Positions 5,812 to 21,865 of a stretch of 64,000 nt of DNA are shown here, piece after piece. A model generated the notes under the pieces. The model searched no databases, was not told the origin of the DNA, and worked only from the letters and a program-made list of their open reading frames with translations. The stretch's first letter is position 1; each line of letters begins with the position of its first letter. This DNA comes from Mucilaginibacter geliditolerans (lineage in GTDB: Bacteria; Bacteroidota; Bacteroidia; Sphingobacteriales; Sphingobacteriaceae), in contig NZ_JACHBY010000006.1 of assembly GCF_014200495.1 (NCBI RefSeq), positions 310,001-374,000 on the forward strand. Reading direction: 5' to 3'. A program made the position numbers and the translations under genes.

Positions 5812-5882
5812 CGTCACTTGTCGATTAAAAATGTTGTTGGTCGAATATCTGTTTTACGTCTAATTAGCTATCATTAGGTTTG
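5812..5882 (+). promoter_or_regulatory. Island operator site 1 plus -7 box
   Basis: Two direct half-sites, CGTCACTTGTCGA (5812-5824) and TGTTGTTGGTCGA (5832-5844), start 20 bp apart. Thirty bases further is TAGGTTTG (5875-5882), a Bacteroidota -7 element, 20 bases before the ATG at 5903. It is one of seven such arrangements in the island and is probably bound by the LytTR regulator at 15812-16525 (inferred). Confidence 0.7.
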
Positions 5883-5902
5883 ATATAGCAATACTATCAA
5901 AA

Positions 5903-7234
5903 ATGAAAAAATTAAAGCTAATTGTGCCAGTGATATTGACACTGGTGGTATCAGCCTGTGTAAAATACAATGCAGGATCGGGTAATGGCAGCCCGGTAAA
6001 AACCACCTCATTAACTATAACAGCTACCAACCGTGTTGCCGGAGCTATGAACGACAGTCTTGTAATTGGGGGAACCGGCTTTGTGACTGATACATCAATG
6101 GATATAGTTACAGTAAATGGGGTACGTGCGCCTATTTTGTCCGCTACCGCGAGTGAGATCATAGCAAAAATTCCTGTGAGGGCGTTTTCGGGGAATATTG
6201 TGGTACAGGTAGGTGGCCGATCGGCTACCGGGCCTAAGTTTCAATACCTGGTTACCACAGGTGTGGTAAGTACTTTTGCCGGCAACCCTAATTTAGGGCC
6301 GGGTTATAAAGATGGCGTGGGAACAAATGCGCGTTTTTTTGGGCCGGTTGCTTTGGCGCTTGATTCGACAGGTAATTTATTTGTAGCCGATTTGCTTAAC
6401 CGCCGCATCCGTAAAATAACAACACAAAATGCGGCAGTTACTACATTTGCAGGTAATGGCACTTACGGCGATAAAGACGGTGACGGAATATCAGCTGAAT
6501 TTGGGTCGATTAATGGGATAGCGATTACTAAAAATGGCTCAGTATATGTTTCCGATGCTGATTTTGATGTCATAAGGGCTATTAGCACCGATGGTACTTT
6601 AGTTACTACCGTAGCCGGGGAGGCAGGACAACAGGGATATTCTAATAACACTTACTTAACGTCACTCTTTAACAAACCCATGGGTCTTACTTTTGATAAT
6701 GTTGGCAACTTGATAATTGTGGACCAGGGTAATAATGTTTTGCGAGAGTTGCCCATACCATCATCAACTTATGTTTCAACATTAACAATGGGTACAAATG
6801 GCAATTTTAACCAGATAAATGGCATAACCTATAATGCTAGGAACAGCGATGTTTACGTAGCTGATGCCGGAAGCAACCAGATAAAGGCGTTTTCTGTAAC
6901 AGCAGTAAATTATACGAATTTCGGTAATGGAACGCTGGGTTATCTAAATGGTATTCATGGAGCACCCGTTGAATTTAACAGGCCGCAAGGTTTGGCGGTT
7001 GATAATGATTTTAATATTTATGTAGCTGATACCTTTAATAACTGTATCAGGATGATTGATAACCAATATAATGTAACCACGTTGGTAGGGAGCACAGAGG
7101 TGGGGTTATTTGATGGAACCGGCGCTGCTGCAAAATTTAACGAGCCAAATGCCGTTGTAGTTGATAATGTTAATCATTACCTATATGTGGCTGATACCGG
7201 TAATCATTGTATAAGAAAGGTTGTGCTTGAATAA
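5903..7234 (+). CDS. Lipoprotein with IPT/TIG domain and NHL repeats
   Basis: A 443-residue lipoprotein. The signal ends at C19 (lipobox VSAC). Residues about 35-115 form an IPT/TIG immunoglobulin-like domain; the rest is an NHL-type beta-propeller with repeats of the pattern P-x-G-(L/I)-A-(V/L)-D...(V/I)YVADxxNxxIR, seen near residues 147, 205, 255, 305, 360 and 410. Such proteins act at the cell envelope as binding scaffolds; no catalytic residues are evident. It is transcribed alone from operator site 1 and faces the operon that ends at 7288. The start is set by the lipoprotein signal and the -7 box 20 bp upstream. Confidence 0.85.
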   Translation: MKKLKLIVPVILTLVVSACVKYNAGSGNGSPVKTTSLTITATNRVAGAMNDSLVIGGTGFVTDTSMDIVTVNGVRAPILSATASEIIAKIPVRAFSGNIVVQVGGRSATGPKFQYLVTTGVVSTFAGNPNLGPGYKDGVGTNARFFGPVALALDSTGNLFVADLLNRRIRKITTQNAAVTTFAGNGTYGDKDGDGISAEFGSINGIAITKNGSVYVSDADFDVIRAISTDGTLVTTVAGEAGQQGYSNNTYLTSLFNKPMGLTFDNVGNLIIVDQGNNVLRELPIPSSTYVSTLTMGTNGNFNQINGITYNARNSDVYVADAGSNQIKAFSVTAVNYTNFGNGTLGYLNGIHGAPVEFNRPQGLAVDNDFNIYVADTFNNCIRMIDNQYNVTTLVGSTEVGLFDGTGAAAKFNEPNAVVVDNVNHYLYVADTGNHCIRKVVLE

Positions 7235-7287
7235 TAATTGAAAGACATTCTAATATTTATTTGTCTTCATTATGTATCCTGAAGTTG

Positions 7288-8286
7288 TTATAGCTTATCC
7301 AGCCATTCCTTTTTCTTCGCATCAAACTCTTCCTGGGTAATTATTTTTTCGTCAAGCAGCTGCTTTAAATTATGTAATGGCAGCATCGGGTCGGATGTCT
7401 CGGTACCTGGCGGCACTTCCTCCTGAGCATTAAAAATTTTACTTAATGCTAAACCTGCACCTATTTGCATTGCCGCACCAGACATGCCTCCCTGATTTTT
7501 GGCAGCATCCCGCAAAGCTTTTAATTTTTCCATATCCACAAAATTCAGCCCCCCGGTTTTAGCGGCTTCGGTTTCAGCTGTTACGTCTGCAATGGTGTTG
7601 ATCCTATCCTGTGTTCCTTTATCAAATACTGTCCCGTTTATCCTGAAATCATTTAACATCAGGCCCAAATGAGTGAATTCAGCAGATAAAACTTCTTTTA
7701 ACCGGTCGGAGAGGAGCCCGAGTTGTGCATCAATTTGCTGGTAAGAAAATTTTGCTGTTGCTAATTGTGTTGCCAGTGTTTGCGTAATTCGGCTTTGTAT
7801 CAGGGGTTTGGCCTGCGTAGTTATATATGAATCACTTAAGCCGGCTGTTTCTGAAAAAAAGAGTTTAGGGTCTGTTATCCTGTAAGAGAAACTACCATTA
7901 GCGCCCAGCTCAACCGGGAAATTATAAACCGGGTCGACATATTTAATGGCATTTGCAGTGCCCCAATTTTGATTGGTGTTATCAGCAACGCGGTAAAAAT
8001 AGATCTTTAGCTTATGCTCACTTTCAAAAGCTGTACGCAGCTTTAATAAAGTGGTGATAAACGGATGATTATCCGTTTCAAGAGTGTAAATGCCCTCATC
8101 TGTAAGTATATCGGTTATTACACCTTCATACACCAGCATAACCCCCTGACCGGGCCCGATAATGAGCTTGCTGGCATTTTTTATCTCGTCGTTAACAGAG
8201 GGAAACTTATAGAGCAGTACCCATAATTGTGGGTTGGGCCATTCAATAACCGATGCCAGTTGATTTTTAAAAAAGCTTAAATTCAT
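7288..8286 (-). CDS. SPFH-domain protein with C-terminal SHOCT motif
   Basis: A 332-residue protein. Residues about 35-230 match the SPFH/band-7 fold of the YdjI ('virion core protein-like') type: GPGQGVMLVYEGVI, a conserved DPVYNFPVELG segment and a long helical region. The C-terminal 30 residues, LKQLLDEKIITQEEFDAKKK, are a SHOCT oligomerisation motif. There is no zinc ribbon in this protein, although the next gene upstream carries one; in many relatives the two are fused. SPFH proteins organise membrane-associated assemblies. It is the last gene of the run 10495-9752, 9739-8411, 8286-7288 that starts at operator site 2, with a 124-bp gap before it. Confidence 0.8.
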   Translation of the reverse strand: MNLSFFKNQLASVIEWPNPQLWVLLYKFPSVNDEIKNASKLIIGPGQGVMLVYEGVITDILTDEGIYTLETDNHPFITTLLKLRTAFESEHKLKIYFYRVADNTNQNWGTANAIKYVDPVYNFPVELGANGSFSYRITDPKLFFSETAGLSDSYITTQAKPLIQSRITQTLATQLATAKFSYQQIDAQLGLLSDRLKEVLSAEFTHLGLMLNDFRINGTVFDKGTQDRINTIADVTAETEAAKTGGLNFVDMEKLKALRDAAKNQGGMSGAAMQIGAGLALSKIFNAQEEVPPGTETSDPMLPLHNLKQLLDEKIITQEEFDAKKKEWLDKL

Positions 8287-8410
8287 GATTAATTTGTTTT
8301 GAACATCCCATGGACGTATTTAGTGATTTTACCTTTAAAACTAACGCTATAAATAGCCCTGCATCATTCCAATTACAATGAGCTTGTATAAATGCTTTAA
8401 AGGCTTGTCT

Positions 8411-9739
8411 TCACCTACTTCCAACAGCATCTTCATTAGCTTTGTACATCCCGGGAATATATTTAGTAAACTTACCTTTAAAGTCAACTTTGTAGGTATT
8501 TCCTGCATCAACCATTGCAAATCCATCGTTATAGCGTACACACTTATCAGGCGGATATAACTCTTTTAACGGAGTGGTAAAGATAATGGCACCCGAGTGC
8601 GCGTCAAGGCATTGAAGGTAACGCAATGCACTTTCGGCCGGGCTTTGTTTCAGGCAGATCAGCACGTAATCATCGTCAAAGTATAGTATCTGCTGTTCAA
8701 AATAGATCCTTGCCGGCGTGAAATCTTTATGAGATATCACACCTTCTTCTTTCAGTTCCTGTTCATTGTTCCAGAAGAAAGGAGAATATCGGGGCACTGG
8801 AACTGTCTCCACAATTTTATCCCCTAAGTATTGATAACTGATCAGTCTCGCGCCGATCTCAGGATGGTCATAATCACTTTGGTTACTAAAATCAAACGCC
8901 GTTTTTTCATCGTTACCTTGCGATAGCGTTTTAATTGGACTTTCAAAACGGCTAAGTTCTTCTTTGGTACATAACTGATCGGTTAGCGGAAAGTAGAAAT
9001 AGTTTTTACCATCATTAGTAAATACCTTAAAACCATTACCGTGCGCATAATCATTATCAGCAAATTCCGCTTTAGCTAAGCCGCTGCTCATCTCCGTATG
9101 GTGCTCAAAAAGTGATTGGGTAACGTCCGTTACGGACAATGAAGATTTTGTTACCTTGGATATAACCAGGTTATCAGAGATGATATACATATCCCCGTTT
9201 GAAAATTCGCGGACATCCAAATTGGTTCCACCATGTTCATGGGTTAAGGCTGAGGCGCCCGGCATTGGTAGTAATTTAAGCTCAGTTTGTAAACCAAGAT
9301 CGTAAAAGGCTATATAATCTTTTGATCTTGTATTGTCACCCCCGTAAGTTTTAGTGCCTATGGTAAATAATATAGGCCTTTTATCTGTTGAAAGGTATAA
9401 CCACTGGCCAGCCCAGGAAATATCCCAACTATAACTGTTATCGCTGCCAGAATTACTTTGCCCGGAGGAAGTGGTTGTTGAATCACTTGGTAAATAGACA
9501 ATGACACAAATTGCAACGGCTATAACTAAAACAAATATGGTTACAGCGGCGATTGCACACCCTGGCTTAGCGGGCTGTACCTGCACCGGTTGTTGTAACG
9601 GATTTGAAAAGGTGACAGTGCCATTATCTAAAAAATATTCAGTTCCGCAGGCTGTACATTTGTAATCTCCCGGCCTTACCTCATATTTTTGAGTGCTGCC
9701 GCATTTTGGGCATTCAATTGCTTTTATTTCTGTTGCCAT
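8411..9739 (-). CDS. Zinc-ribbon, single-span membrane protein
   Basis: A 442-residue protein in three parts: an N-terminal zinc ribbon (C10-P-K-C13 ... C28-T-A-C31), a hydrophobic span at about residues 61-85 (AIAAVTIFVLVIAVAICVIV), and a large outer part of about 350 residues rich in beta strands with no named domain. The topology suggests a cytosolic zinc ribbon coupled to an extracytoplasmic sensor-like or binding domain. It lies 12 bp downstream of the metallopeptidase-like gene, so co-transcription is likely. Function is unknown; association with the SPFH protein downstream is suggested by context only. Confidence 0.7.
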   Translation of the reverse strand: MATEIKAIECPKCGSTQKYEVRPGDYKCTACGTEYFLDNGTVTFSNPLQQPVQVQPAKPGCAIAAVTIFVLVIAVAICVIVYLPSDSTTTSSGQSNSGSDNSYSWDISWAGQWLYLSTDKRPILFTIGTKTYGGDNTRSKDYIAFYDLGLQTELKLLPMPGASALTHEHGGTNLDVREFSNGDMYIISDNLVISKVTKSSLSVTDVTQSLFEHHTEMSSGLAKAEFADNDYAHGNGFKVFTNDGKNYFYFPLTDQLCTKEELSRFESPIKTLSQGNDEKTAFDFSNQSDYDHPEIGARLISYQYLGDKIVETVPVPRYSPFFWNNEQELKEEGVISHKDFTPARIYFEQQILYFDDDYVLICLKQSPAESALRYLQCLDAHSGAIIFTTPLKELYPPDKCVRYNDGFAMVDAGNTYKVDFKGKFTKYIPGMYKANEDAVGSR

Positions 9740-9751
9740 TAATTAATGGAA

Positions 9752-10495
9752 CTATTTAAGTGGCTTGCCTGCGTTTTGTATTGCTTGCCTGAATGTTTCA
9801 AAGGGTTGTTCTTTACTCACCTCTACTATCATAATTGATTGGTACCAGGTGTAGGCGGCGCCACCAGGAAGCTTTTGATAATTATCGTTTAGATATTGCG
9901 CTTTATCCAGCCCGGCAGGGACCGGGCTAGGGGAATGGCTTACAATACCATTAAAAACACTAAGCATAAGCTGGTAAAATTGCGGATCATGCTCGTTCCA
10001 ATAAGCGGCATCAATACGGTTGGCAGCTTTTTCATTTTCATACGGATCTGCGGTTACGTGCTGGCAGGCTCTCCACCAATGCCCCAACTCATGAATGAAT
10101 ATCCATTTATGAACGCTTATTTCAAAAAATTGCTCTGCTGTTATCCTTGAGTTCAGGTTTTTAGCTAATTCTTCAAACACCTGGCGTGCTCCTGCGGGAA
10201 GCGTATTCCAGTCGCAGGTGTGCAAAACGTTCTTTTCGTCATCATAGTTACCAAATGACCTGGGATTATCCAGAACTAAAACCGGCGGGGCCAGGCTTGG
10301 CTTAAAACTAAATGATTTTATTTCATTAATATATGAGTCCCTTAATGTTGAAAGTTTTTTAAGCAACGTGTCATTTTGCTGTGCCGATACTGTATTTATA
10401 AGTAAGACAAATGGTACAAATGCCCCAATTTTAAATGCGCTGCCAATAAAGGTTATAGCATTTAAAATTATTTTTTTTATAGCAGGATGTTTCAT
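9752..10495 (-). CDS. Exported zincin-like metallopeptidase (HELGH)
   Basis: A 247-residue protein with a hydrophobic signal at about residues 20-39 (ending SAQQ) and a zincin motif H135-E-L-G-H139 in KWIFIHELGHWWRACQ. E153 or E155 in YENEKAANRIDAAYW could be the third zinc ligand of a gluzincin. No exact peptidase family was recognised. It is the first gene of a three-gene operon controlled by operator site 2. The -7 box of that site (10500-10507) lies only four bases before the ATG at 10495, so the transcript would be nearly or fully leaderless unless translation starts further in. Confidence 0.65.
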   Translation of the reverse strand: MKHPAIKKIILNAITFIGSAFKIGAFVPFVLLINTVSAQQNDTLLKKLSTLRDSYINEIKSFSFKPSLAPPVLVLDNPRSFGNYDDEKNVLHTCDWNTLPAGARQVFEELAKNLNSRITAEQFFEISVHKWIFIHELGHWWRACQHVTADPYENEKAANRIDAAYWNEHDPQFYQLMLSVFNGIVSHSPSPVPAGLDKAQYLNDNYQKLPGGAAYTWYQSIMIVEVSKEQPFETFRQAIQNAGKPLK

Positions 10496-10499
10496 TCAT

Positions 10500-10570
10500 C
10501 AAACCTATGAAATACTCAAAGGGTATTAAATAACATATCGACCAACGACAATTTAAATAGACAGAAGACG
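10500..10570 (-). promoter_or_regulatory. Island operator site 2 plus -7 box
   Basis: Read on the minus strand: half-sites CGTCTTCTGTCTA (10570-10558) and TGTCGTTGGTCGA (10550-10538), starting 20 bp apart, then 30 bases, then TAGGTTTG (10507-10500). It faces the operon 10495-7288. It stands back to back with site 3, 17 bp away. Confidence 0.72.
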
Positions 10571-10587
10571 ATGTTTCAAATCCTACC

Positions 10588-10658
10588 TGTAGTTTGTCGA
10601 TTAAATGAGCAGTTCGGCGAGAAACGCTTTGACGGAAGGGGAATTCCTAAGACGTTTG
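10588..10658 (+). promoter_or_regulatory. Island operator site 3 (degenerate) plus -7-like box
   Basis: Half-sites TGTAGTTTGTCGA (10588-10600) and AGCAGTTCGGCGA (10608-10620), 20 bp apart. Thirty bases further is GACGTTTG (10651-10658), one mismatch from TAnnTTTG. It is the weakest of the seven sites, but its spacing is exact and it precedes a lipoprotein gene. Confidence 0.5.
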
Positions 10659-10681
10659 TGGTAAATCATATGATCAAAAAA

Positions 10682-11113
10682 ATGAAAAGATACATACTAC
10701 TAATTCCTGCGATACTTATTATGGCCGCCTGTTCAAAAAAGAACAACCCTGCTCCAGCACGGCTTACCCCATCCAATGCCAATGCAACTGATCTTGTAGG
10801 GAAATGGACTGTAATTACAGATACTATATTTTTGAAGGGGAGTAGTCAGTTTAATACTAAGCCGGTGAACGACGCGTCTTATTTCACATTTGAAGCTGAT
10901 GGTACAGGTAATTTAGGCACTACCAGTAGCGGTTTGGAAGGGCTCTTCAATTATACTGTTAATAACGGAACTTTAATTTTAACCATACCTAATCCCAACG
11001 GTAGCACAGGTGTCTATGCAACATATTCGATCTATAATATTACAAAAAGTACGTTGGGATTACGGCTCAGTAATAATAACAACACGTACGAAGATGCCTG
11101 GCTAACCAAATGA
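10682..11113 (+). CDS. Small lipoprotein, lipocalin-like
   Basis: A 143-residue lipoprotein with a signal ending at C17 (lipobox IMAAC). The body has the pattern of small Bacteroidota lipocalin-like proteins: LVGKWTV near residue 38, then alternating beta strands (FTFEADGTGNLG, FNYTVNNGTLILTI). The frame is open further upstream to 10571, but that part overlaps operator site 3 and lacks a signal peptide, so ATG 10682 (or 10670) is the likely start. Ligand unknown. Confidence 0.75.
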   Translation: MKRYILLIPAILIMAACSKKNNPAPARLTPSNANATDLVGKWTVITDTIFLKGSSQFNTKPVNDASYFTFEADGTGNLGTTSSGLEGLFNYTVNNGTLILTIPNPNGSTGVYATYSIYNITKSTLGLRLSNNNNTYEDAWLTK

Positions 11114-11215: not shown

Positions 11216-13240
11216 CTATCGGGCCATATTCTCAAACTCCAACATAATACTCACGCCCTGGCCGGGGTTGGTAACAGCGGTTACCTTACAATTGATAGCA
11301 TGCGCCATGTCCCTTACAATATGCAAACCTAATCCACTTTTAATGCCTATTGGTGCTTCTTTATTATACAATGGCGCGAATTGCTGTTGTGTGGCGCCTG
11401 GGCCGTTATCGGTAACGGAAAAATACGTTATGCCATCTTTTTCCCAGGCTTTCCATTCAATAGCGGCATTGGGTGTATTTTTAAGTGCCTTTTGCGCATT
11501 GCCGGTAAGGTTGTGCATAATGGTTTTAAGGTAATTTTCATCAGTAAGCAGCTGCATCCCATCCGGCTGGCTAAAGTTGACATTTATTCCGGTAGCGGTT
11601 ACCATTGAGCGGGCTATGTATTCAAACAATTCTTTTACCGCAACGTGTGCCGGTTGCGGGGTGAAGTTTTCCATCTGGTCTTTGCTCCACAACAGCAGGT
11701 CCTCCATTTTCTCGAGCAAGTTTTCGGCAACTTTTTCTGATCGAGCGGCAAAACGTTCGGCAGCATGGGGGGCCAACATGTCGGGATCATCACGTTGCAG
11801 GCGTATAAAGTTAAGGTAGCCCGCTACCGGGCCGCGCAGGTCGTGGTTAAGTATGCCGAGGAATTTTATCTTAATTTTATTAGCTTTATCTAATTGTACA
11901 TTAGCGGTAGTGAGCTGGCTATTAAGCGCTGATAATGATGTATTAGCCTTTTTACGCTGACGACTTTGGCTAAAAATGAGGCTCGCTATCAAAAGCAATA
12001 GAATAAGGCCCACCGTTAAAAAAATGGTTTGTTTATGCTCATTGGCTATTTGTAGCTTATTTATTTCCAGCTGTTTGTTGCGTAAGGCAATTTCTCGGTC
12101 AGATTCTATGTCAGAGATCTTATTCTTATCCTTCTGCGAATAAATAGAATCTTTTAATTTTTCAAGCGACCTGATGTTTTGCAATGCGTTCTTATACTTC
12201 CCTTCGTAGGCCTGCACCGATGCCAGGCTATCTAAAGTCATTATGGTAAAGGTTTTGTTCAATGCTTTTCTTGAATACATAAGCGTGTTATTAAAAGCGC
12301 TGTCGGCTTTGGCAACCATTGCGGCCTTTAGGGCTTTCCGGTTCTTAATACCTTTCAGGGTATCAATGGTGCCAGTCAGATCCCAGTAATTAGCAGCTAT
12401 GTTAAACTGGTTCATTACCGAATAAAAGTTGAGCGGATATATCTTATCCCATATAGAGCGCGCTAAAAAGCAGTAATGGATGGACGCGGTATCTTCAGGG
12501 TATGAACTGCCATAACTGGCGGCCAGCTGGCAGTACATGGTGGCCTGGCCGATACTATCTTTTGTATGCTGGTATATTTTCAGCGCTTTGGTAAACCAGC
12601 TTTTTGCTTCCGGAAATTTTTGCGTATTCTGGTTTATTACCCCGTAAAGTTCATAGGCCTTGGCTTTGGCAATGTAGCCTGTGTTGCCCATCTTCAATGC
12701 TTTATTGATATATTCTATAGCCTTAGCGCTGTTATTCTCGTTGAGAAAAACAGAGGCTATATTTACATAAATAAGATCACTACGGGGGCGTTTTTTCATG
12801 CTTTCGGATATGGAAAGGGCACTGAAAAGAGACCTCATGGATGATAAAAAATCCGCCTGATTCTGATAGACGAGCCCGGTGCCTACATAGGCATTTATCA
12901 TCCGCACCGAATCATACTGTTCCCTGGCCAGGTTAAGATCCCGCCTGTAGTATGCTATGGCTTCGGCAAATTTTTGCTGACCGGAGCTGATATCGCCAAG
13001 AAATCCGTAAAACTTGCCGATTGCCAGTTTATTGTTGGTTTTAACGGCAAGCGCCAGCCCTTGCTGTGCATAAGCAGTGGCTTTAGCGGGCGATTTGTAT
13101 TTGAACTGATCAACCAGTTTTTGAAGCGATCTTAACTTTATTGAGTCCGGGTTGGCCGAAGGTTTTTTCTGGGCAAATGCGGAAAACAGGCATAGTAATA
13201 AAATCACCGTAGTAATATATTTCATAGTTGGTTGAGGCAT
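11216..13240 (-). CDS. TPR-containing membrane histidine kinase
   Basis: A 674-residue sensor kinase. A signal peptide (ending FSAFAQ) leads to about 350 periplasmic residues of tetratricopeptide repeats, one membrane span near residue 405 (TVGLILLLLIASLIF), a coiled linker, a HisKA domain with phospho-acceptor H466 (LNHDLRGP), and an HATPase_c domain with the N/G boxes DNGPGA and GIKSGLGLHIV. A likely better start is the ATG five codons in (13225). It is the only kinase in the island, and the only soluble response regulator there is the LytTR protein at 15812, so they probably form a pair even though three genes separate them. No operator site precedes this gene. Confidence 0.88.
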   Translation of the reverse strand: MPQPTMKYITTVILLLCLFSAFAQKKPSANPDSIKLRSLQKLVDQFKYKSPAKATAYAQQGLALAVKTNNKLAIGKFYGFLGDISSGQQKFAEAIAYYRRDLNLAREQYDSVRMINAYVGTGLVYQNQADFLSSMRSLFSALSISESMKKRPRSDLIYVNIASVFLNENNSAKAIEYINKALKMGNTGYIAKAKAYELYGVINQNTQKFPEAKSWFTKALKIYQHTKDSIGQATMYCQLAASYGSSYPEDTASIHYCFLARSIWDKIYPLNFYSVMNQFNIAANYWDLTGTIDTLKGIKNRKALKAAMVAKADSAFNNTLMYSRKALNKTFTIMTLDSLASVQAYEGKYKNALQNIRSLEKLKDSIYSQKDKNKISDIESDREIALRNKQLEINKLQIANEHKQTIFLTVGLILLLLIASLIFSQSRQRKKANTSLSALNSQLTTANVQLDKANKIKIKFLGILNHDLRGPVAGYLNFIRLQRDDPDMLAPHAAERFAARSEKVAENLLEKMEDLLLWSKDQMENFTPQPAHVAVKELFEYIARSMVTATGINVNFSQPDGMQLLTDENYLKTIMHNLTGNAQKALKNTPNAAIEWKAWEKDGITYFSVTDNGPGATQQQFAPLYNKEAPIGIKSGLGLHIVRDMAHAINCKVTAVTNPGQGVSIMLEFENMAR

Positions 13241-13454
13241 AGCTGTATAATACGAAGATAAGCAATAGTATTTGCCTTTTTTTTAATACCTGGTGTTGTG
13301 CGTGGGCTATGGAAAATACAAAAAAGCTGACCAGGTTAAAAGCTACGGCCTGTTTCAGCTATGAACAAACTTACCTAGCTAACCCTGTAAAATAAATTCC
13401 GTTAATATTTTCCTATACCATAGGAAATAAAACCAACTTTTTTGTGAAATAAAA

Positions 13455-13526: not shown

Positions 13527-14213
13527 TCATTTAGTAAAGGTACCGTATATATAATCCGAACCGCCGTTAACTACAGCAGGAGGCTTATAACTCATCATCA
13601 TTATCGCCCCATTGTCAAATACGAATACACTGTTAACGCCATTTAATGTCGTTGTTGCTACTGCATTATTTTGTAGCGTATAAGCTTGGTCGGGGGTGTT
13701 GTAGCCGGTTTGATCGATATTGTATTGACTGCCTGAAAAGGAAAGGTAAGCAAAAGAATGTTGTCCGTTTGTAAACGTAACGGCGCCTGTATATTCATTA
13801 TTGCTAAAGGAATTGCTGGCAGGTGTTTTTTCAAGCTTATAGGTGATAAGGCCCAGGCCATCTGTTGAAGCCCCGCTAATAGTACTATTAGCTATTGTAA
13901 AATCAAATGTGGCCACAAGCTGCATAGTTTGCCCAAAGCTGGTGATCAAATGGCCATTGGCATAAGTATAACTACCCTTTACAACACCAAAAATAGCATC
14001 TACAAAAGTACATGCTGAATTAGTGTTTAAAATTATAGCATAAGGGATCGGTACATTGGTTACACTTGGCGAAAGATTGTAATTATACTGCCCTGCAATA
14101 TAATATTGTGTGAGGCCGGCGGTGCCCGAAGCCGTATCCTTGTCTTTACCACAGGCAGTTATCAGCATGATTGCCGCCAAGCAAGTCGTTTTTATGAGCG
14201 TTTTAATTTTCAT
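13527..14213 (-). CDS. Lipoprotein of unknown function
   Basis: A 228-residue lipoprotein: signal ending at C21 (lipobox ITAC), then GKDKD and a beta-rich body with several internally similar segments (FTIANSTISGASTDG, FSFSGSQYN-like strands). No family is recognised. The ATG at 14213 is preferred over the upstream in-frame ATG at 14231 because it places the signal peptide at the N terminus. It is the last gene of a run of three minus-strand genes starting at 15651 and is followed by a terminator. Confidence 0.7.
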   Translation of the reverse strand: MKIKTLIKTTCLAAIMLITACGKDKDTASGTAGLTQYYIAGQYNYNLSPSVTNVPIPYAIILNTNSACTFVDAIFGVVKGSYTYANGHLITSFGQTMQLVATFDFTIANSTISGASTDGLGLITYKLEKTPASNSFSNNEYTGAVTFTNGQHSFAYLSFSGSQYNIDQTGYNTPDQAYTLQNNAVATTTLNGVNSVFVFDNGAIMMMSYKPPAVVNGGSDYIYGTFTK

Positions 14214-14260
14214 GATATAATTACTGATCATTTAATAAATCGAAGTATGCAATAGATGGA

Positions 14261-14989
14261 TCATGGCATCCACGATACCATCTTGGCATATAGCTGGTTG
14301 GTCCAGTTGCCGCCACAGTGTGTATTGCAGCTATTATCTGTAACACCGCTGCTTTCCGCTTTTATCGGCGAATTGGGATCTATGTGTTCATAAAGTTCTT
14401 TACCCGAGTAATCGCCCTCGTTATTGCCACTACAGGCTATAGCAAAAATAGGTATCTTAAATTCGGTGGCTTCCGTACCGCCGCATGGGGCAAGCAGCCC
14501 TTTGCAATAACTAAGGTCATCGTAATAAGCGCTGTTGGTAAGCAGCATAAAGCTGGCATAAGAGTAGCCGCCTACAACAGAATTGTTCTTATTTACATTA
14601 AATTCGGCAGATAGGGCAGTGATGCAGCTATTGTAATCCTCGCCTATCTCTTGTGCACTGGTATTCCAGTCGGCCAGGCCAGGTGTTTTACGGTATTGAA
14701 CTATGGCTGCCACATAACCATTCTGCGCTGCTTTGGTACAAAGGTCAACGTCGGTACTTTCGTCAAGGATGCCGGCAGTAGGGTTATTTTCGTCGTTCCC
14801 ACTGCCCATTACCAATATACCTTTAAAGCTGCTTATGCCGCTACCCACGAATGATTTATAGGTAATGGCATTTTTCATTTCTACTGTTTCTTTTACGTTG
14901 CTGCTGGTAACAGTACTATTGGTGCTTTTACCGCATGATAGCATGGCGCCTAATATTAATACGGTTGCTAAATAAAATATTGCTTTCAT
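14261..14989 (-). CDS. Alpha/beta-hydrolase-like lipoprotein
   Basis: A 242-residue lipoprotein with a signal ending at C19 (lipobox AMLSC). The body looks like an alpha/beta hydrolase: a GSGNDEN segment after the second strand, a nucleophile elbow candidate VVGGYSYASF (serine in G-Y-S-Y-A, not the usual GxSxG), an APCGG loop, a possible acid in SGNNEGDYSG and a histidine in CNTHCGGNW near the C terminus. Several cysteines could form disulfides. The ATG at 14989 rather than the upstream 15040 start fits the signal. Activity, if any, is likely esterase-like; this is inference. Confidence 0.65.
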   Translation of the reverse strand: MKAIFYLATVLILGAMLSCGKSTNSTVTSSNVKETVEMKNAITYKSFVGSGISSFKGILVMGSGNDENNPTAGILDESTDVDLCTKAAQNGYVAAIVQYRKTPGLADWNTSAQEIGEDYNSCITALSAEFNVNKNNSVVGGYSYASFMLLTNSAYYDDLSYCKGLLAPCGGTEATEFKIPIFAIACSGNNEGDYSGKELYEHIDPNSPIKAESSGVTDNSCNTHCGGNWTNQLYAKMVSWMP

Positions 14990-15048
14990 TTTACTCGTCT
15001 TTAATTGTGTAATGTTAACGCGGTAATTCAGAATAAGCATAAAGCTGT

Positions 15049-15651
15049 TTAAAACTTGAACGATAAACCTACCTGCAATGCCGATACGCCATATCCGACT
15101 TCGGCAAAGCCGCCAACACTATTGCTGAACATATATCTTGCACCTGCATGTACACCTAAAAACACTGTACTGCCATAAGCACCAGGCAAAGGGTTACCGG
15201 CGTAATTATAGCTTGCTGAGTAATAGCCCAACGAAACGCCGGCATAAGGATCAAATTTTGGATTACTTACATTAAGAAGTTTGGCAAAGTGGTATGATCC
15301 GCGCACGCCAACGTATACCAGGTGCAGGCTGTAATTATATAAGCCATTATCATTATAAGATGAATAATTTACAAATGCGCCGGCGCTGATATCATCGGTA
15401 AAGCCATGTTCAAATGATACGCCAAACGGTAAGCCCTTGTAGTAGGTGCCTAACCCAACGCCGGGATCAAGAAAATTTTTATCCATCACACTGTATTCAT
15501 CTGTTTTTGGTGCTACAATTACCGGGCGCGGCACAGGTTTAGGTTTTCCGGATGTAGCCGTAACGCTTGTTTTGGTGGTTTTCTTTTTTGTTTGAGCATT
15601 TACGCAAATTGCCGATATGGCAATTAACATGAGTAATAAGACCTTTTTCAT
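15049..15651 (-). CDS. Outer-membrane beta-barrel protein
   Basis: A 200-residue exported protein. Residues 1-19 are a signal peptide (ending VNAQ), followed by a Lys/Thr/Pro-rich linker and a small beta-barrel of about eight strands with alternating hydrophobic residues (GVSFEHGFTDDISAGAFVNY, GVRGSYHF, VGGFAEVGYGVSALQVGLSFKF). The terminal phenylalanine is typical of outer-membrane proteins. First gene of the operon with two lipoproteins downstream, transcribed from operator site 4. Confidence 0.75.
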   Translation of the reverse strand: MKKVLLLMLIAISAICVNAQTKKKTTKTSVTATSGKPKPVPRPVIVAPKTDEYSVMDKNFLDPGVGLGTYYKGLPFGVSFEHGFTDDISAGAFVNYSSYNDNGLYNYSLHLVYVGVRGSYHFAKLLNVSNPKFDPYAGVSLGYYSASYNYAGNPLPGAYGSTVFLGVHAGARYMFSNSVGGFAEVGYGVSALQVGLSFKF

Positions 15652-15682
15652 ACGTTTGGTAGTTTCGATTTTTTTTTCAAAT

Positions 15683-15753
15683 CAAAACTATGTACTGCCA
15701 AAGCGCTAAAAAATGACCATTAGACAAACGACAATTTAAATCGACCAGCAACA
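15683..15753 (-). promoter_or_regulatory. Island operator site 4 plus -7 box
   Basis: On the minus strand: TGTTGCTGGTCGA (15753-15741) and TGTCGTTTGTCTA (15733-15721), starting 20 bp apart, then 30 bases, then TAGTTTTG (15690-15683), about 31 bp before the ATG of the beta-barrel gene. It lies in the gap shared with the divergent LytTR regulator gene, so binding could also affect the regulator itself. Confidence 0.75.
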
Positions 15754-15811: not shown

Positions 15812-16525
15812 ATGACAGATATTATAAAATATAACTGTGTTATTGTTGACGATGAGGAAATAGACAGGCTTACAACACTCTCGTTTGTACGCAAATATCC
15901 CCAGTTTAATGTTTGTGGCATATGTGCATCTGTTGAAGACGCGCTGAAAATTATTGAAACCGTAGATATACAAATACTTTTTTCGGATATTGATATGCCC
16001 GGTATCGACGGATTTGAGTTCCGGCGCAGGCTGATGCATATACCGGTATGCGTATATATCACCTCTTATGCTGATATGGCTGCCGAAAGCTTTGAACTTT
16101 CCGCACTCGATTTTTTGGTTAAGCCAATTAAAGCGGATCGTTTTGAACGCACGGTGGCCCGAATTCAGGAATATATGGATGTGAAGCAGAAAGCGAACTT
16201 ATACGAACACAGCCTCGGTGGCGATACGGTTTTTATAAAAGACGGACATAGCTTTATAAAAGTGAAGCTTCATGACATCATGTACCTGGAGGCTTTGAAA
16301 GATTATACGCTAATATTCACCACCGAAAAAAAATACTGTGTACTTTCCACTATCGGCAGTTTGCTAAAGGAAAATAACTTCCGCAGCTTCATCCGCGTAC
16401 ACCGTAGTTATGCCGTACAAAAACATCTCATCAATAAAATTTCCACCAACGAATTAGTCGTTAATGACATAACTATTCCTATAGGCCGGATATATAAAGA
16501 TAATCTGCTGGGTATAAAATCCTGA
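15812..16525 (+). CDS. LytTR-family response regulator
   Basis: A 237-residue two-domain regulator. The receiver domain covers about residues 7-120, with acidic pocket D13-D14, phospho-acceptor D59 (SDIDMPGIDG), the conserved Thr in YITSYAD and the Lys in FLVKPIKADRF. The LytTR DNA-binding domain covers about 135-237, with the motifs IKVKLHDIMYLEALKDYTLIF and FRSFIRVHRSYAVQKHLINKI. LytTR regulators bind paired direct repeats spaced about two helical turns apart, which is what the seven island sites show. It is divergent from the beta-barrel operon and has no adjacent kinase; the TPR kinase at 11216-13240 is the likely partner. Confidence 0.9.
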   Translation: MTDIIKYNCVIVDDEEIDRLTTLSFVRKYPQFNVCGICASVEDALKIIETVDIQILFSDIDMPGIDGFEFRRRLMHIPVCVYITSYADMAAESFELSALDFLVKPIKADRFERTVARIQEYMDVKQKANLYEHSLGGDTVFIKDGHSFIKVKLHDIMYLEALKDYTLIFTTEKKYCVLSTIGSLLKENNFRSFIRVHRSYAVQKHLINKISTNELVVNDITIPIGRIYKDNLLGIKS

Positions 16526-16611: not shown

Positions 16612-16682
16612 TGTTGTTGAGCGATTTAAAATGTCGCTTGTCGAAAATGTGTTTTCAGTCCGCGGCAGGCGGGATATGTTTG
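16612..16682 (+). promoter_or_regulatory. Island operator site 5 plus -7 box
   Basis: Half-sites TGTTGTTGAGCGA (16612-16624) and TGTCGCTTGTCGA (16632-16644), 20 bp apart; 30 bases further TATGTTTG (16675-16682), 28 bases before the ATG at 16711. Confidence 0.72.
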
Positions 16683-16710
16683 TGTAAATATTAACTAACA
16701 CTTACGTAAA

Positions 16711-17196
16711 ATGAAAACATTTAAAAAAATCCTCAGCTTTTCTATTATCGTGTCGGTGGCTTTTTTTGGCTGCGGAAAGAAAAGCGATGTTTCACCTTCA
16801 GGCAGCACATCATCATCATGGACAATTGCAGGAAATAACTATAATTCAACCACCACCGCGTTTACCAATAACGAACTTTTGGGTATTGATCAAAAGGTGA
16901 GCACCGAGCCTAATATTGGCATTCAATTTAATGCCACACCCGCTGCCGGTACTTACACCATAGTAAATCAATATAATGCAACTGTTGGCAACGGGCAATG
17001 CTCAATTCTTGAGTCAATTGGAAATGCCGTGTATGTATCAGATAACGGCGGTACTGTAACGGTCACTGTTTCAAACGGAAAGATAACAGCTTCATTTAAA
17101 AATATTGCAATGGGTATGCTTTCTGCAGTTAACAATAATGGGACTTTTGAATTTGTCAGTGCCGGAACCAGTACAGGTACCTTAACAGAGCAATAG
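16711..17196 (+). CDS. Small lipoprotein of unknown function
   Basis: A 161-residue lipoprotein with a signal ending at C21 (lipobox FFGC) and a low-complexity Ser/Gly linker. The body is beta-rich (WTIAGNNYNSTTTAF, GIQFNATPAAGTYTIVNQY, GGTVTVTVSNGKITASFKNI), resembling small surface-exposed Bacteroidota proteins with an Ig-like or jelly-roll fold, but no family is named. It is transcribed alone from operator site 5. Confidence 0.7.
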   Translation: MKTFKKILSFSIIVSVAFFGCGKKSDVSPSGSTSSSWTIAGNNYNSTTTAFTNNELLGIDQKVSTEPNIGIQFNATPAAGTYTIVNQYNATVGNGQCSILESIGNAVYVSDNGGTVTVTVSNGKITASFKNIAMGMLSAVNNNGTFEFVSAGTSTGTLTEQ

Positions 17197-17414
17197 TTTT
17201 CGTAATTCGCAAAAACCTGTCGTTGCCTTTATGTTTAATGATAGGATTAATTAAGCTGTCCGGTGCAAAAGGACACGATTTTTTAGCCTCGCATATGCGG
17301 AGCTTTTTGCGTTTCAGGGAGTAAACAACCATTCATTTTAATTATTAAGCATACAAAGCCGCAATTATTTAAGCCACCTGAGTTTTCATCTCAACTGTAG
17401 CAGACGCTTAAACC

Positions 17415-17624: not shown

Positions 17625-17751
17625 GAGCGAGCTACTGAGGCAAAAACGTTCTTCTGAGTAAAGTATGCTGAAGATCCATAAGCATAGCTTACCCGCTGCG
17701 CGACTATTACCGATCAACCCTATTTCCAAAATTGCAAAAGTGAACAGTCTA

Positions 17752-17821
17752 TGTTGCTGGTCGATTTTAAATGTCGTTGGTCTAATAAAATTTTCGGTTC
17801 AAAAACCCTGGATTAAATTTG
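17752..17821 (+). promoter_or_regulatory. Island operator site 6 plus -7 box
   Basis: Half-sites TGTTGCTGGTCGA (17752-17764) and TGTCGTTGGTCTA (17772-17784), the closest to consensus. After 29 bases comes TAAATTTG (17814-17821). The first half-site and linker are nearly identical to those of site 4 on the other strand. Confidence 0.77.
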
Positions 17822-17836
17822 AGAAAAACATTTACT

Positions 17837-19003
17837 ATGAAACGTTTCCTCAAACTCCTGATCATTGTTCTATGCACAATTACTGTTATTACTTCCTGTA
17901 GCAAATCGGGCGTTACCCCGAAAATAAAACCTGATACTACCGGCACTAAAACCGGAACCACAACCGGTACAGGCGCTGTAGACGTTTATGTGGCGGGTAC
18001 TTACTCAAATCTTACTACATATCTACACGGGCAAGCTTGCTATTGGAAAAACGGAACGCTGGTATTGTTACCCGCGCCCAGCAACCCTTCCCAGGCGTTT
18101 TCGGTTTCGGTTTTAGGAAGCGATGTATACGTATCAGGCTGTTACGGCTCACCTGAAAGTCCGGCCCTATGGAAAAACGGACTGCTTATTCCTTCGGCAT
18201 CGGCCCCAACTGGCCCATGGGGTGCAAGGGCAACCTGCATGGCCGTCTCAAATAACACGCTCTATGTGGGTATCGATACGTACACTTATACAAACATTGC
18301 AACTACTGCTGAATACCTTGCTATTACCGGAACGAAGTCGGTAGAATCAGGTTTGCCCGACGGTAATAACCAGCCTATGGTTAAATCCATCTGTGCTTCT
18401 GGTAGTACGGTATATAGCGCTGGCACCGGATACATTTCTTTTACCAGCAGCTTTACGGCAACCATCCCTGTTTACTGGGCAAACTCAACTGAACAACCGT
18501 TTTTGTTTCCAAGCGAGTTTGGTAGCGCTATGTATAAGTTTGGCGTTGCGTATAGCATAACAACTTCAGGAACTAATGTGTACGCCGTAGGAGAGATAAA
18601 AGGTTCAAATGACCCAAATGGCGCTTCTGCCAGTTCTGCCCCGGTGTTGTGGAAAAATAATGTGGCAACCATTCTTAGTGAAACAGCGCCGGGCATTTGG
18701 ACGGGTGGGGCAGCAACAGGTGTAGCTGTATCAAATAATGATGTTTACATTGCCGGCTATCTTTCTCAAATTAATGGAGAAGAACCGGTATTATGGAAAA
18801 ATGGCGTAATGACACAACTACCGCAGCATTCCGGTGATGCGTTGCCGAGCGGCATTGCTGTTAACGGCAGCGATGTGTATATATGTGGCATCGATGGTGT
18901 TTCCACCAATTCGGCTTGTTATTGGAAAAACGGAACAGAGACCTTATTGACCGACGGAACATCTGACTGTGCAGCACACGGCATTTTAGTGGTTCAGCAT
19001 TGA
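17837..19003 (+). CDS. Lipoprotein with WKNG-type propeller repeats
   Basis: A 388-residue lipoprotein: signal ending at C21 (lipobox VITSC), a Thr/Gly-rich linker, then six to eight repeats of about 45 residues with the pattern (V/I)YVxGxx...(P/A)xx(W/Y)WKNGxxxxL. The repeats suggest a beta-propeller resembling Bacteroidota surface repeat proteins of unknown role. A TTG start 18 bp upstream is possible in frame, but that TTG is part of the -7 box of site 6, so ATG 17837 is preferred. Transcribed alone. Confidence 0.75.
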   Translation: MKRFLKLLIIVLCTITVITSCSKSGVTPKIKPDTTGTKTGTTTGTGAVDVYVAGTYSNLTTYLHGQACYWKNGTLVLLPAPSNPSQAFSVSVLGSDVYVSGCYGSPESPALWKNGLLIPSASAPTGPWGARATCMAVSNNTLYVGIDTYTYTNIATTAEYLAITGTKSVESGLPDGNNQPMVKSICASGSTVYSAGTGYISFTSSFTATIPVYWANSTEQPFLFPSEFGSAMYKFGVAYSITTSGTNVYAVGEIKGSNDPNGASASSAPVLWKNNVATILSETAPGIWTGGAATGVAVSNNDVYIAGYLSQINGEEPVLWKNGVMTQLPQHSGDALPSGIAVNGSDVYICGIDGVSTNSACYWKNGTETLLTDGTSDCAAHGILVVQH

Positions 19004-19079
19004 TTAAATGAATCGTTTTATAATATTTTAGATAATTTAATATAAGTATTCAAGTAGACATTGCCATAAAATTTAAGTC

Positions 19080-19670
19080 ATGCCATTAACGTCTTTAGCA
19101 AAATCAGCCATGTTAGCTATAGCAATAACCATAATTGCTATTGGCACATGAGAAATCCGTTTAGGCACCAGGGAATAAAGCCCGATTTTGATGATGATGC
19201 CGAACTTTGGTCCAATAAAAGGGCAATGGTATATGGATCATCTGATAAATTCACTGTGATTTTAGGTTCATCACGAGGGGTATTTGATATTGACATACGC
19301 ACCTATGAGCGGATGACAGGCAAACAGGTTGTGCAATTGTCGATGAACGGGGCTTCGCCCAGAACGGCGCTGGATGATTTGGCCAATGATCCTAAATTTA
19401 AAGGCAAATTAATTTTAGACGTAACAGAAACCCTGTTTTTCAATAACCAGCAGCGGCCCGGTGGCGGATATCGAAGCAAATTTGTACCCTAAAACCGGCT
19501 ATTGGGACAAGTTGCTTGCGGCCACGGGCTGTAAAGGGATATACAATGCGGATTATTCGGCTATTAGCCATTTTGCTTGTCCTGAATTTTCGCACCTGCA
19601 ACCCAGAGAAGCCGCTATATTCACCAAAAACATTGTTACCATCCTCAAAAATGAAAAAGGGTGGAATTAA
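19080..19670 (+). pseudogene. Broken SGNH-like membrane protein gene
   Basis: Three pieces of one ancestral gene. From ATG 19080 a membrane helix (MLAIAITIIAIG) reads into a TGA at 19149-19151, where a tryptophan codon would be expected. After a frame change, 19148-19492 encodes FTVILGSSRGVFDIDIRTYE and LILDVTETLFF, resembling the N-terminal half of SGNH-type acylhydrolase-like membrane proteins. The next frame, to 19670, encodes the C-terminal part (GYWDKLLAATGCKGIYNADY, FSHLQPREAAIFTKN). Roughly 150 residues of the usual middle are missing. Nonsense change, frameshift and deletion together mark it as dead. Confidence 0.65.
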
Positions 19671-19878
19671 GTATTCAAAACGACCACGGAATTAATTTTT
19701 AGTTATGGTTTTCAACTCTTTTACCTTCATCGCATTTTTTATTGTTACCTTGATATTGCATAATCTTCCGTTTTCTGATTGAACACCGATGTAAGATATT
19801 TATATCGCACAAATCTGATTCCTTATTTACTAAATCATACAATGAAACGGGTATATAAAGTTAAATACCAAATAACCT

Positions 19879-21321
19879 TTAAAACTTTCCAACCTGGCCT
19901 TTAAGCTGCTGCAGGATCTTCTGTGCATTAAAGCCTACGCCGTCTTTAAAAACGAATTGTACTTTTTCAATATTATTAATATTGTCTGCCACGTTTCCAT
20001 CAATCACCACCATATCAGCGTGCTTACCAACTTCCAGTGACCCAATAGTTGACTGCGCCTGTAATGCAACCGCTCCGTTGTAAGTAGCTATGCGTATCGC
20101 TTCAATGGCCGTAAATCCCGCCTTCGTCAATAATTCAATGGCACGCAAGCTTCCATACCCTGCCAGCACATTACCGTTACCTGTCGGGTCAGTTCCAGCA
20201 GTAAGCAAGCCCCCGGCACCGGCAAACTCTTTCTCCATAACAAGTTCCTTGGTCATTGCACTATCCATATCGGCACTTTTTTCGTGGCTATAATATTTTA
20301 AGTACATATCCCTGGTATCGGGCGACATGGCGTCAAACGCCTGTTGTTTTGGTATGGTATCCTGTTTGCACAATCCTTCAAAAACGGCAAGAGTAGAAGT
20401 AAGGATCACTTTGTTTTTAACAAGTATGTTTATCAGGTCTTTTATTTCTTTGCCACGCGGGTTGATATGTTTAAAGGGGTTCAGTTCAGAAACGCAGGCA
20501 TCTTCTCCTTTACCGGGTATAAAATCAGTGGCAGCAAAAAAGCCGTGTTCCAGTTGATCTATACCCATTTCTGCCGCTTCACGATAAGTTACCGCGCACA
20601 AATGCCCTGTTATTTTTAATCCTCTTGCATGGGCAGCATCAATCGCGGCTTTCAAAACAGCGCGGTTAAGGTTCATGTAAGCCTTAAAAGAAGTGAAGCC
20701 TTCATCAGCCCAAAAGTTTACAAATCTTTTTGCCTCTTCGGTAGTGGTTATTTCATGCATCTGGGGTGCAAAGCCACCCGCCCCTTCCATATACGGCGCC
20801 GTAACATACAGGGTAGGGCCAATGATCTGATGCGCATCGATTTCTTTTTTTAAGGATAGATCCGAGTAAGGCTCAACGCTTCCTGCCGTGCGTGCTGTAG
20901 TTACGCCGCATGCAAAATAAAGCCTGGGGAAGCTTACCGGCAATTGCTTATAATGTATGTAATAGGGTGAAATACTGGCATCAGGATAAAACATGTGTTC
21001 GTGCAGCAACACATAACCCGGCAATACTGTTTTCCCTGTACAGTCAATTATAGTTGCACCAGGAGGAATATGTACTACTTTTGTTTTGCCCGTACTTATG
21101 ATAATTCCATGCGCTATTACAATCGTTTCATCACTTAAAACGGTTTTATGAATAACATCTCCAAAATAGCAATGGGTAAGCGCTATGGTATCCTGCTTAT
21201 AAGAAATATAAGCCTGGATAGCATAAGGATAAGCAGACTGTGCATAAAGCTTGCATGAAAAAACCAAGCAGAAAAAAACTGTAATAACGGTTTTACCGAT
21301 ACCCTTTAACAGCTTTTTCAT
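19879..21321 (-). CDS. Exported amidohydrolase (imidazolonepropionase-like)
   Basis: A 480-residue amidohydrolase with a signal peptide (residues about 10-27, ending KLYAQ). The metal centre motifs are present: HEH after the PGYVLLH strand (H107/H109 region), a candidate bridging lysine in TSFKAYMNL, histidines in KITGHLCAV and QLEHGFF, and the catalytic aspartate in TAGTDPTGNG. The small beta-sandwich domain closes with the GKHADMVVIDGN motif. It should hydrolyse amide or cyclic amide bonds in the periplasm, such as dipeptides or imides. It lies 24 bp downstream of the small secreted protein, so both are probably transcribed from operator site 7. Confidence 0.88.
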   Translation of the reverse strand: MKKLLKGIGKTVITVFFCLVFSCKLYAQSAYPYAIQAYISYKQDTIALTHCYFGDVIHKTVLSDETIVIAHGIIISTGKTKVVHIPPGATIIDCTGKTVLPGYVLLHEHMFYPDASISPYYIHYKQLPVSFPRLYFACGVTTARTAGSVEPYSDLSLKKEIDAHQIIGPTLYVTAPYMEGAGGFAPQMHEITTTEEAKRFVNFWADEGFTSFKAYMNLNRAVLKAAIDAAHARGLKITGHLCAVTYREAAEMGIDQLEHGFFAATDFIPGKGEDACVSELNPFKHINPRGKEIKDLINILVKNKVILTSTLAVFEGLCKQDTIPKQQAFDAMSPDTRDMYLKYYSHEKSADMDSAMTKELVMEKEFAGAGGLLTAGTDPTGNGNVLAGYGSLRAIELLTKAGFTAIEAIRIATYNGAVALQAQSTIGSLEVGKHADMVVIDGNVADNINNIEKVQFVFKDGVGFNAQKILQQLKGQVGKF

Positions 21322-21345
21322 GTTTTTGCATTTTATTGAAACTAA

Positions 21346-21708
21346 TTATTTAGAGCGCAACATTTTAAGATGCAACTTGTGACCATTAGGTAAGGCAACA
21401 TTGGAACTTAGCGAATCAGTATAGTAAGTCCCCGTTATTTTTGCCTGACCGTAATTCTCTGTTATTATAAAAGAAAAATTATTTCCGGCAACCTTACCGC
21501 TGTCAATATCAACACTGCCTCCATCCGGGCCAACAACGGCACCGGTAAGTGTATTATTGGTTTGTGTCAGATTATAAACGAAGGTAGCCGAATCTGTACT
21601 GTGGGGACGAATCAGATGACCGATCCATTTGCCTGAAAGGTTGATTTGTGTAAATGCCATCAGCCCACATGTAAGCACCAATGACAATAGGATAAATTTA
21701 TTTTTCAT
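21346..21708 (-). CDS. Small secreted protein, lipocalin-like fold
   Basis: A 120-residue exported protein: signal peptide ending about residue 21 (LMAFTQ), then INLSGKWIGHL, a start typical of small lipocalin-like Bacteroidota proteins, and strands FVYNLTQTNNTLTGAVVG and FSFIITENYGQAKITGTYY. No catalytic residues. It lies 24 bp upstream of the amidohydrolase and about 90 bp downstream of the -7 box of site 7. Confidence 0.7.
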   Translation of the reverse strand: MKNKFILLSLVLTCGLMAFTQINLSGKWIGHLIRPHSTDSATFVYNLTQTNNTLTGAVVGPDGGSVDIDSGKVAGNNFSFIITENYGQAKITGTYYTDSLSSNVALPNGHKLHLKMLRSK

Positions 21709-21795
21709 TATACTAATTTAGCTTATTACAATTTAATTTCAACCTAAATTCAGTTCTCATCATTAGGCATCCCCCTTAGCACAATAATTATACGC

Positions 21796-21865
21796 CAAAC
21801 ATACTGGTGGTTTACCACTAATTAAAATATTTTAGACGAACAGCAAAATAAACCGACGAACGAAT
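21796..21865 (-). promoter_or_regulatory. Island operator site 7 plus -7 box
   Basis: On the minus strand: ATTCGTTCGTCGG (21865-21853) and TGCTGTTCGTCTA (21845-21833), starting 20 bp apart, then 29 bases and TATGTTTG (21803-21796). It is more diverged than the others but keeps period and spacing. It overlaps the 3' end of the truncated AlbA_2 frame, whose last residues are translated operator sequence. Confidence 0.55.

Follow-up and report, generated by a model that had tools for sequence, protein, structure and literature searches.

The window analysed here is a 64,000-nucleotide stretch of the Mucilaginibacter geliditolerans genome, in which hemW (3323-4444) and a gene for a membrane LytTR protein (22512) are separated by 18 kb of additional genes. 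Within this island lie seven similar paired repeats, each ahead of a gene unit, together with a gene for a REC-LytTR response regulator, of which the repeats are very probably the operators (Table 1). Orthologues of hemW and 22512 (74-76% and 73-80% identical, respectively) adjoin, ~90 to 215 bp apart, in three relatives without the block (G117, G018 and G101); this empty site means that the block is an insertion and that 22512 lies outside it. The island is bordered by 117-bp direct repeats, of which only two copies were found in the genome. An earlier note on this DNA had reported these repeats and the lack of operators beyond them, and both observations held. The tyrosine recombinase encoded next to the left repeat is probably truncated. 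Its flanking repeats and its position between genes that are neighbours in relatives both mark the 18-kb block as an integrative insertion. At its right end lies an AlbA_2/Schlafen-like fragment of 125 amino acids (21818-22195), the 3' end of which is overlapped by operator 7.

All seven operators are 33-bp units (13+7+13) of two direct half-sites with a period of 20 bp around an A/T linker. The half-site consensus, taken over 15 sites from the window, a second genome of the genus (G029) and a metagenome-assembled genome (MAG) of Puia, is approximately TGTYGYTNGTCKA; these sites never vary in the C at position 11 of either half-site or in the TT that opens the linker. The second half-site is followed by a TAnnTTTG box, which starts 30 bp away in five of the seven sites and 29 bp away in two (17752 and 21833), and which is exact in all but the one at 10651, where it matches at 5/6. 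Since only 54 plus-strand positions of the 64 kb (0.084%) carry the exact box (matches of at least 5/6 occur at 1.07% of window positions), its presence at six of seven sites at two fixed offsets is far beyond chance. A wider set of 19 sites from seven genomes has offsets of 30 bp (16/19) or 29 bp (3/19) and boxes exact in 16 and 5/6 in 3. In addition, a TTT begins 5-7 nt past half-site 2, 20-21 bp ahead of the box, in every island site and in 18 of the 19 (it is absent from one Puia site). In F. psychrophilum TAnnTTTG sits at -12 to -5 (PMC9723704); by our own arithmetic the operator would then span roughly -74 to -42, with the TTT close to -33. The coordinates, strands, 20-bp period, box spacing of 29-30 bp and single mismatch at 10651 were thus all as the earlier note had described them; its consensus is better given as the one above, and it had overlooked the TTT at -33 and had not named the TPR kinase (11216-13240) as the regulator's likely partner. 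A distance of 5 bp separates the end of operator 2's -7 box from the annotated ATG of the metallopeptidase-like gene (10495-10500), so this transcript may be leaderless.

We searched the 6.5-Mb genome for further sites. The two-block pattern of the earlier note, with up to 3 mismatches, matched at five places, all inside the island, and the reversed control pattern gave 0 matches in the same genome. A sequence-only covariance model built from the seven sites (R1) found all seven at E 5.9e-12 to 8.5e-9, with the next match at E 0.0585. This recovery is partly circular, as the seven sites are the training set; their leave-one-out matrix scores were 20.4-39.2 bits. The two weakest sites (10588 and 21833) are detectable by profile only. 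The many matches of the same spacing elsewhere in the genome, which the earlier note had named as a ground for dropping the idea, therefore did not appear by pattern or by R1. In 1.65 Mb of other loci, which overlap partly and many of which were chosen for a regulator, so that they are not a random background, all places above 17 bits belonged to G029, to the Puia contig or to a locus that has a LytTR gene. The scans scored a limited number of candidates (150 of 2225 first-look candidates in the genome, 33 per genome across the genus, and 12 per genome in the family and class scans described below), and weak sites can be missed: in the family genome G291 the model listed two sites where the matrix found four.

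The operator was found to track the regulator. Among 149 genomes of the genus, R1 at E <= 0.001 gave seven sites in the window's own genome (G000) and five in G029, with G006, G032 and G062 having a single one apiece. Regulator matches at E <= 1e-45 were present in 10 of the 149, and were close only in G000 (100%) and G029 (77%), the rest being 35-48% identical; the only two genomes with several sites are thus the two that carry the close regulator. G029 has six operators by matrix (five by model), each ahead of a gene unit. Its block genes are mostly 59-86% identical to those of the window (35% for one propeller-like lipoprotein, 53% for a second lipocalin-like copy), their order is changed, they are spread over two contigs, and the amidohydrolase unit lies behind the operator of the lipocalin-like gene. 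The G029 island (L049) also has two TPR kinase genes for its single regulator; the first breaks off close to the end of the contig (93% over 86 amino acids) and the second is 41% identical to that of the window. In the Puia MAG (contig L048) an 83% identical regulator is directly followed by a kinase, and two operators are present. The more distant regulators of 47-48% identity (G126, G073, G127 and G151) have one operator each, divergent from the regulator and 30 bp before an exact TAnnTTTG; those of G073 and G151 point at secreted-protein genes, in G073 including a TIG protein and an LGFP protein.

We also took the opposite route, from DNA to protein. A model of 19 sites (R2), run on 399 genomes of the family, gave 40 places at E <= 0.01, of which 10 belonged to the training set. 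Of the 30 others, 26 were tested as 3-kb loci with the LytTR profile (outside this test were G232 and the second places of G291, in L201, G157 and G349). A LytTR gene was found in 6/6 loci at E < 1e-4 (G340, G291, G320, G354, G402 and G214), in one of three at E 1e-4 to 0.0015 (G272, and neither G032 nor G277), and in 0/17 at E > 0.002. With 22 LytTR genes in the 6.5 Mb of the window's genome, we estimate the chance of a LytTR gene at ~1% per locus. The loci of G340 and G402 show the regulator and then the start of a TPR protein, and the wider regions of G340, G291, G214 and G272 all hold a REC-LytTR gene (51-55% identity) adjoining a TPR kinase. In G320 and G354 (L163 1607-3043 and L164 2-1435) regulator and TPR protein lie in one open frame without a stop between them, possibly because the two are fused or because of a sequence error. 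Four operators fall within 11 kb of G291, in a cluster of secreted proteins with NHL and LGFP members that we read as a second local regulon. In the same cluster (L201 15110-16675) an open reading frame (ORF) of 117 amino acids lies beside a radical SAM protein, possibly a modified-peptide pair. A model of 28 sites (R3), run on 395 genomes of the class, added three places outside its training set. One (G506, E 2.5e-9), from another family, combines a TPR kinase with a 57% identical regulator, and its operator faces three lipoprotein-like genes in divergent orientation; the regions of the other, weak two (G682 and G055, E 0.001-0.0017), when read, contained neither regulator nor kinase. Altogether, searches with DNA only added eight genomes in which an operator lies next to a REC-LytTR/TPR-kinase pair; the identity of the regulator, measured in five of them, was 51-57%.

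In a tree of 46 REC-LytTR proteins the 14 operator-bearing regulators, seven found protein-first (window, G029, Puia, G126, G073, G127 and G151) and seven DNA-first (G340, G320, G402, G291, G214, G272 and G506), form one group with support of 100/100. Five relatives of 40-42% identity, in the loci of which no operator was found, form their own group (100/98) joined to the operator clade (99/95), and the remaining 27, best matches of other genomes, fall outside both. The tree leaves out G354 and the membrane LytTR genes of G006 and G062, which have no receiver domain, and its G320 row is the regulator part only. The Puia regulator nests with that of the window (97/89), suggestive of horizontal transfer or else of a mis-binned MAG contig. 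Seven other REC-LytTR loci (L009, L017, L020, L023, L025, L030 and L033) contain half-site pairs that are weaker and have a period of 21 bp, at ~1.1-1.3 kb from the regulator, as the best of eight spacings and without a control; they are possibly operators of other LytTR clades.

The closest named NCBIfam model for the island regulator is BtsR (1e-27, below its cut-off); in a sequence search of the PDB for an AgrA-like DNA complex, the best stretches of all 50 matches lay in the receiver half. The kinase gene is 2.6 kb from the regulator gene, and its homologues adjoin the regulator in other genomes, from which adjacency the kinase is likely to be the partner. Matrix and promoter scans found no operator pointing at the regulator gene, and autoregulation by that route was rejected. 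None lies directly ahead of the kinase gene either; it could be transcribed from the barrel unit across a gap of 286 bp, which holds its own TAAGTTTG box at 13373. The predicted regulon comprises 12 genes, or 13 with the kinase, and a small ORF (19148-19492) could be a further member. Pfam and NCBIfam matches gave no function name for the targets. The types that recur are lipoproteins and secreted proteins of the NHL, TIG, propeller-like (by eye) and LGFP kinds, suggesting a cell-envelope or surface response.

Table 1. Repeats, genes and operators of the island (positions in the window).
Feature	Position	Strand	Remarks
Left flanking direct repeat	4434..4550	+	117 bp
Right flanking direct repeat	22339..22455	+	92% identical to left repeat
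Short tyrosine recombinase	4599..5243	+	214 amino acids; Pfam Phage_integrase; just inside left repeat
REC-LytTR response regulator	15812..16525	+	237 amino acids; Pfam Response_reg 1.7e-14, LytTR 8.6e-14; predicted operator binder
TPR histidine kinase	11216..13240	-	674 amino acids; Pfam TPR_12, HATPase_c; predicted partner; promoter candidate TAAGTTTG at 13373
NHL-repeat/TIG lipoprotein	5903..7234	+	predicted target
SPFH/Band 7 protein with SHOCT	7288..8286	-	predicted target
Zinc-ribbon-like protein	8411..9739	-	predicted target; Pfam match below cut-off; hydrophobic segment by eye
Metallopeptidase-like protein	9752..10495	-	predicted target; HELGH motif by eye; no Pfam match
Lipocalin-like lipoprotein	10682..11113	+	predicted target; start 10670 or 10682
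Lipoprotein	13527..14231	-	predicted target; no Pfam match
Lipoprotein, alpha/beta-hydrolase-like by eye	14261..15040	-	predicted target; no Pfam match
Outer-membrane beta-barrel	15049..15651	-	predicted target; Pfam match just below cut-off
Lipoprotein by signal sequence	16711..17196	+	predicted target; no Pfam match above cut-off
Repeat (propeller-like by eye) lipoprotein	17837..19003	+	predicted target
Secreted amidohydrolase	19879..21321	-	predicted target
Small secreted protein	21346..21708	-	predicted target; no Pfam match
Operator 1	5812..5844	+	precedes NHL/TIG lipoprotein gene; -7 box TAGGTTTG at 5875-5882
Operator 2	10538..10570	-	precedes metallopeptidase-like/zinc-ribbon-like/SPFH unit; -7 box TAGGTTTG at 10507-10500
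Operator 3	10588..10620	+	half-site 2 weaker; precedes lipocalin-like lipoprotein; box GACGTTTG (5/6) at 10651-10658
Operator 4	15721..15753	-	precedes beta-barrel/alpha-beta-hydrolase-like/lipoprotein unit; divergent from regulator gene; box TAGTTTTG at 15690-15683
Operator 5	16612..16644	+	precedes small lipoprotein 16711-17196; box TATGTTTG at 16675-16682
Operator 6	17752..17784	+	precedes repeat lipoprotein 17837-19003; box TAAATTTG at 17814-17821
Operator 7	21833..21865	-	half-site 1 weak; precedes 21708-21346 and amidohydrolase; box TATGTTTG at 21803-21796

The above results make it very probable that the island's REC-LytTR regulator has its own operators in the seven sites, and that these form with it a self-contained, activated two-component regulon. 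The TPR histidine kinase, envelope-anchored as judged by eye, would probably sense a signal and phosphorylate the regulator. Two regulator molecules would then occupy one 13-bp half-site each, on the same face of the DNA and at a distance of two helical turns. Bound between roughly -74 and -42, close upstream of the TTT as a weak -33 element, they would recruit the sigma-A RNA polymerase to some twelve genes for lipoprotein, barrel, SPFH/peptidase and amidohydrolase products. The sites, their geometry, their confinement to the island, the empty site and the co-occurrence with one regulator clade are seen in the sequences; that the regulator binds, that this kinase phosphorylates it and that the effect is activation, not repression, we infer. 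The link between the regulator and the sites, which the earlier note had proposed from their proximity and from what LytTR proteins generally do, is favoured by their co-occurrence with close orthologues, by the DNA-only searches that led back to the same clade, and by the backbone position of 22512. In the scan of related genomes that it had suggested the operator likewise tracks the regulator, with the exceptions of G032 and G277 (no LytTR gene in the locus) and of G006 and G062 (another LytTR type).

Several observations weigh against this reading. The transcript start predicted for operator 2 falls at or next to the annotated ATG. A model-free control was less clean than the scans, supportive but weaker: counting pairs of at least 8/13 identity with an exact box at 29-30 bp gave 12 rows at spacing 20, nine of them from five of the operators and three from two further places (23426 and 55497), none of the remaining spacings between 15 and 26 exceeded 6, and 20 shuffles gave 0-3 in 19 cases and 9 in one. 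Among 10 distinct sites of the DNA-first genomes of the family, a 5/6 box lies at 29-30 bp in eight and an exact one in 0, and the G291 sites at 6101 and 11964 are without a box of at least 5/6 at this distance; with G506 included, the boxes of the DNA-first genomes are no better than 5/6. With 12 candidates scored per genome, so that weak sites may have escaped, a single site was found in seven of the eight DNA-first genomes, which makes a large regulon the exception. R1 matched in G032 (E 4.6e-4), where the 3-kb locus has no LytTR gene, and beside the receiver-less membrane LytTR genes of G006 and G062, so the site type is not wholly exclusive to the regulator clade. Finally, the operator search of the loci of the sister group (40-42% identity), which also have a kinase, found none.

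It is possible, though unlikely, that the regulator binds the sites but represses, or acts both ways. If the -33 consensus is TTG or TTTG, the TTT, which has no following G in six of the seven island sites, would be a weak -33 element, which argues against repression. A precedent for repression is the LytTR protein CoxC, which represses from an operator overlapping -35 (PMC11347149). The island operators, in contrast, end 5-7 nt upstream of the -33 TTT without overlap, the position of activating LytTR sites (PMC6193735, PMC4227749).

Another LytTR protein, either 22512 or one of the other 20, could bind the sites, the island regulator being a passenger, but this we regard as quite improbable. 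The genome carries 22 LytTR genes, 22512 is only 0.65 kb from operator 7, and similar repeats lie alongside the membrane LytTR genes of G006 and G062. Against it, the orthologues of 22512 sit by hemW in the three relatives without the island, so 22512 belongs to the backbone and was rejected as the regulator; G117, G018 and G101 gave no R1 match at E <= 0.001 (G117 has one weak R2 match, E 0.0042, without a LytTR gene in the locus); no homologue of 22512 was found in the four G029 and Puia loci compared; and the operator-bearing REC-LytTR regulators form a single tree group. That copies of one promoter cassette spread along with paralogous lipoprotein genes, the sites being conserved by descent instead of by binding, is very improbable: some pairs are alike beyond the operator (10498-10562 and 15681-15745, 72%) and lipoproteins make up many targets, but across the 19 sites the half-sites and boxes are conserved and the DNA between them mostly is not, and the half-site pair recurs in other genera and another family ahead of different genes.

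With the regulator's own operators as the preferred reading, the block is probably transferred together with the system that controls it, and the regulon seems to move as one insulated unit. More broadly, we lean towards the view that one REC-LytTR/TPR-kinase clade keeps a near-fixed operator code over no fewer than two, and probably three, Bacteroidia families, and that in some lineages (this island, G029 and G291) the operator has multiplied, placing an envelope cluster under its own travelling regulator while the host's other LytTR circuits stay untouched. Bacteroidota genomes can hold many LytTR regulators, as the 22 here illustrate; the present work supplies a testable operator sequence, a promoter geometry, a regulator clade and a list of targets.

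Outside the island, two adjacent cupin_8/JmjC-like genes (57-938 and 1404-2288) are 67% identical, with one copy in the regions read of G117 and G101. BLAST self-hits at the end of and just after the PMT_2 gene revealed a perfect self-inverted stretch of 42 nt (25146-25187) and another of 36 nt (94%; 25062-25097). An Rfam search of positions 1-30000 matched no known RNA element.

VirR and BtsR are LytTR-type response regulators with paired direct repeats. Like these, and like AgrA and YpdB, the island system combines a REC-LytTR protein with two repeats two helical turns apart, upstream of -35 or -33; the receiver and LytTR domains, the repeat period, the position near -33 and the tracking of operator and regulator all fit a LytTR response-regulator regulon. 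Unlike all of these, it has its own half-site sequence, a 20-bp period, a Bacteroidota -33/-7 promoter and a TPR-type kinase, and its seven operators are confined to one inserted island. LytTR sites are described as repeats of 9-11 nt, 11-13 nt apart, without a common consensus (PMC4847170), AgrA sites are placed near -60 (PMC4227749), and the repeats of LytTR regulatory systems (LRS) lie mostly ~10 bp upstream of -35 (PMC6193735). No paper linking LytTR with Mucilaginibacter or Pedobacter was found in the library searched; LytTR papers on Bacteroidetes and Bacteroides exist and may hold operators, and predicted ones are reported for two Bacteroides LytTR operons (PMC6193735). These LRS-like operons of B. 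thetaiotaomicron have 11-bp direct repeats, 11 bp apart and 11 bp upstream of a TGTA-19 bp-TATCTTTG promoter (PMC6193735, Table 3), and thus share direct repeats with the island; their regulators are membrane-spanning LytTR proteins with a membrane partner in a presumably autoregulated operon (PMC6193735), whereas the island has a soluble REC-LytTR protein, a kinase and targets in several units of a cluster. The HdrR/BrsR LRS of S. mutans resembles the island in having a LytTR regulator and several promoters with repeats just upstream of -35 (PMC6193735), but an LRS pairs its regulator with an inhibitory membrane protein in one operon, autoactivated from repeats before it; the probable partner, encoded beside relatives of the island regulator, is a TPR histidine kinase, and in the island no operator is aimed at the regulator gene. 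LytTR direct-repeat operators are known as such, and what appears new is the operator sequence, the regulator clade and a regulon confined to one island.

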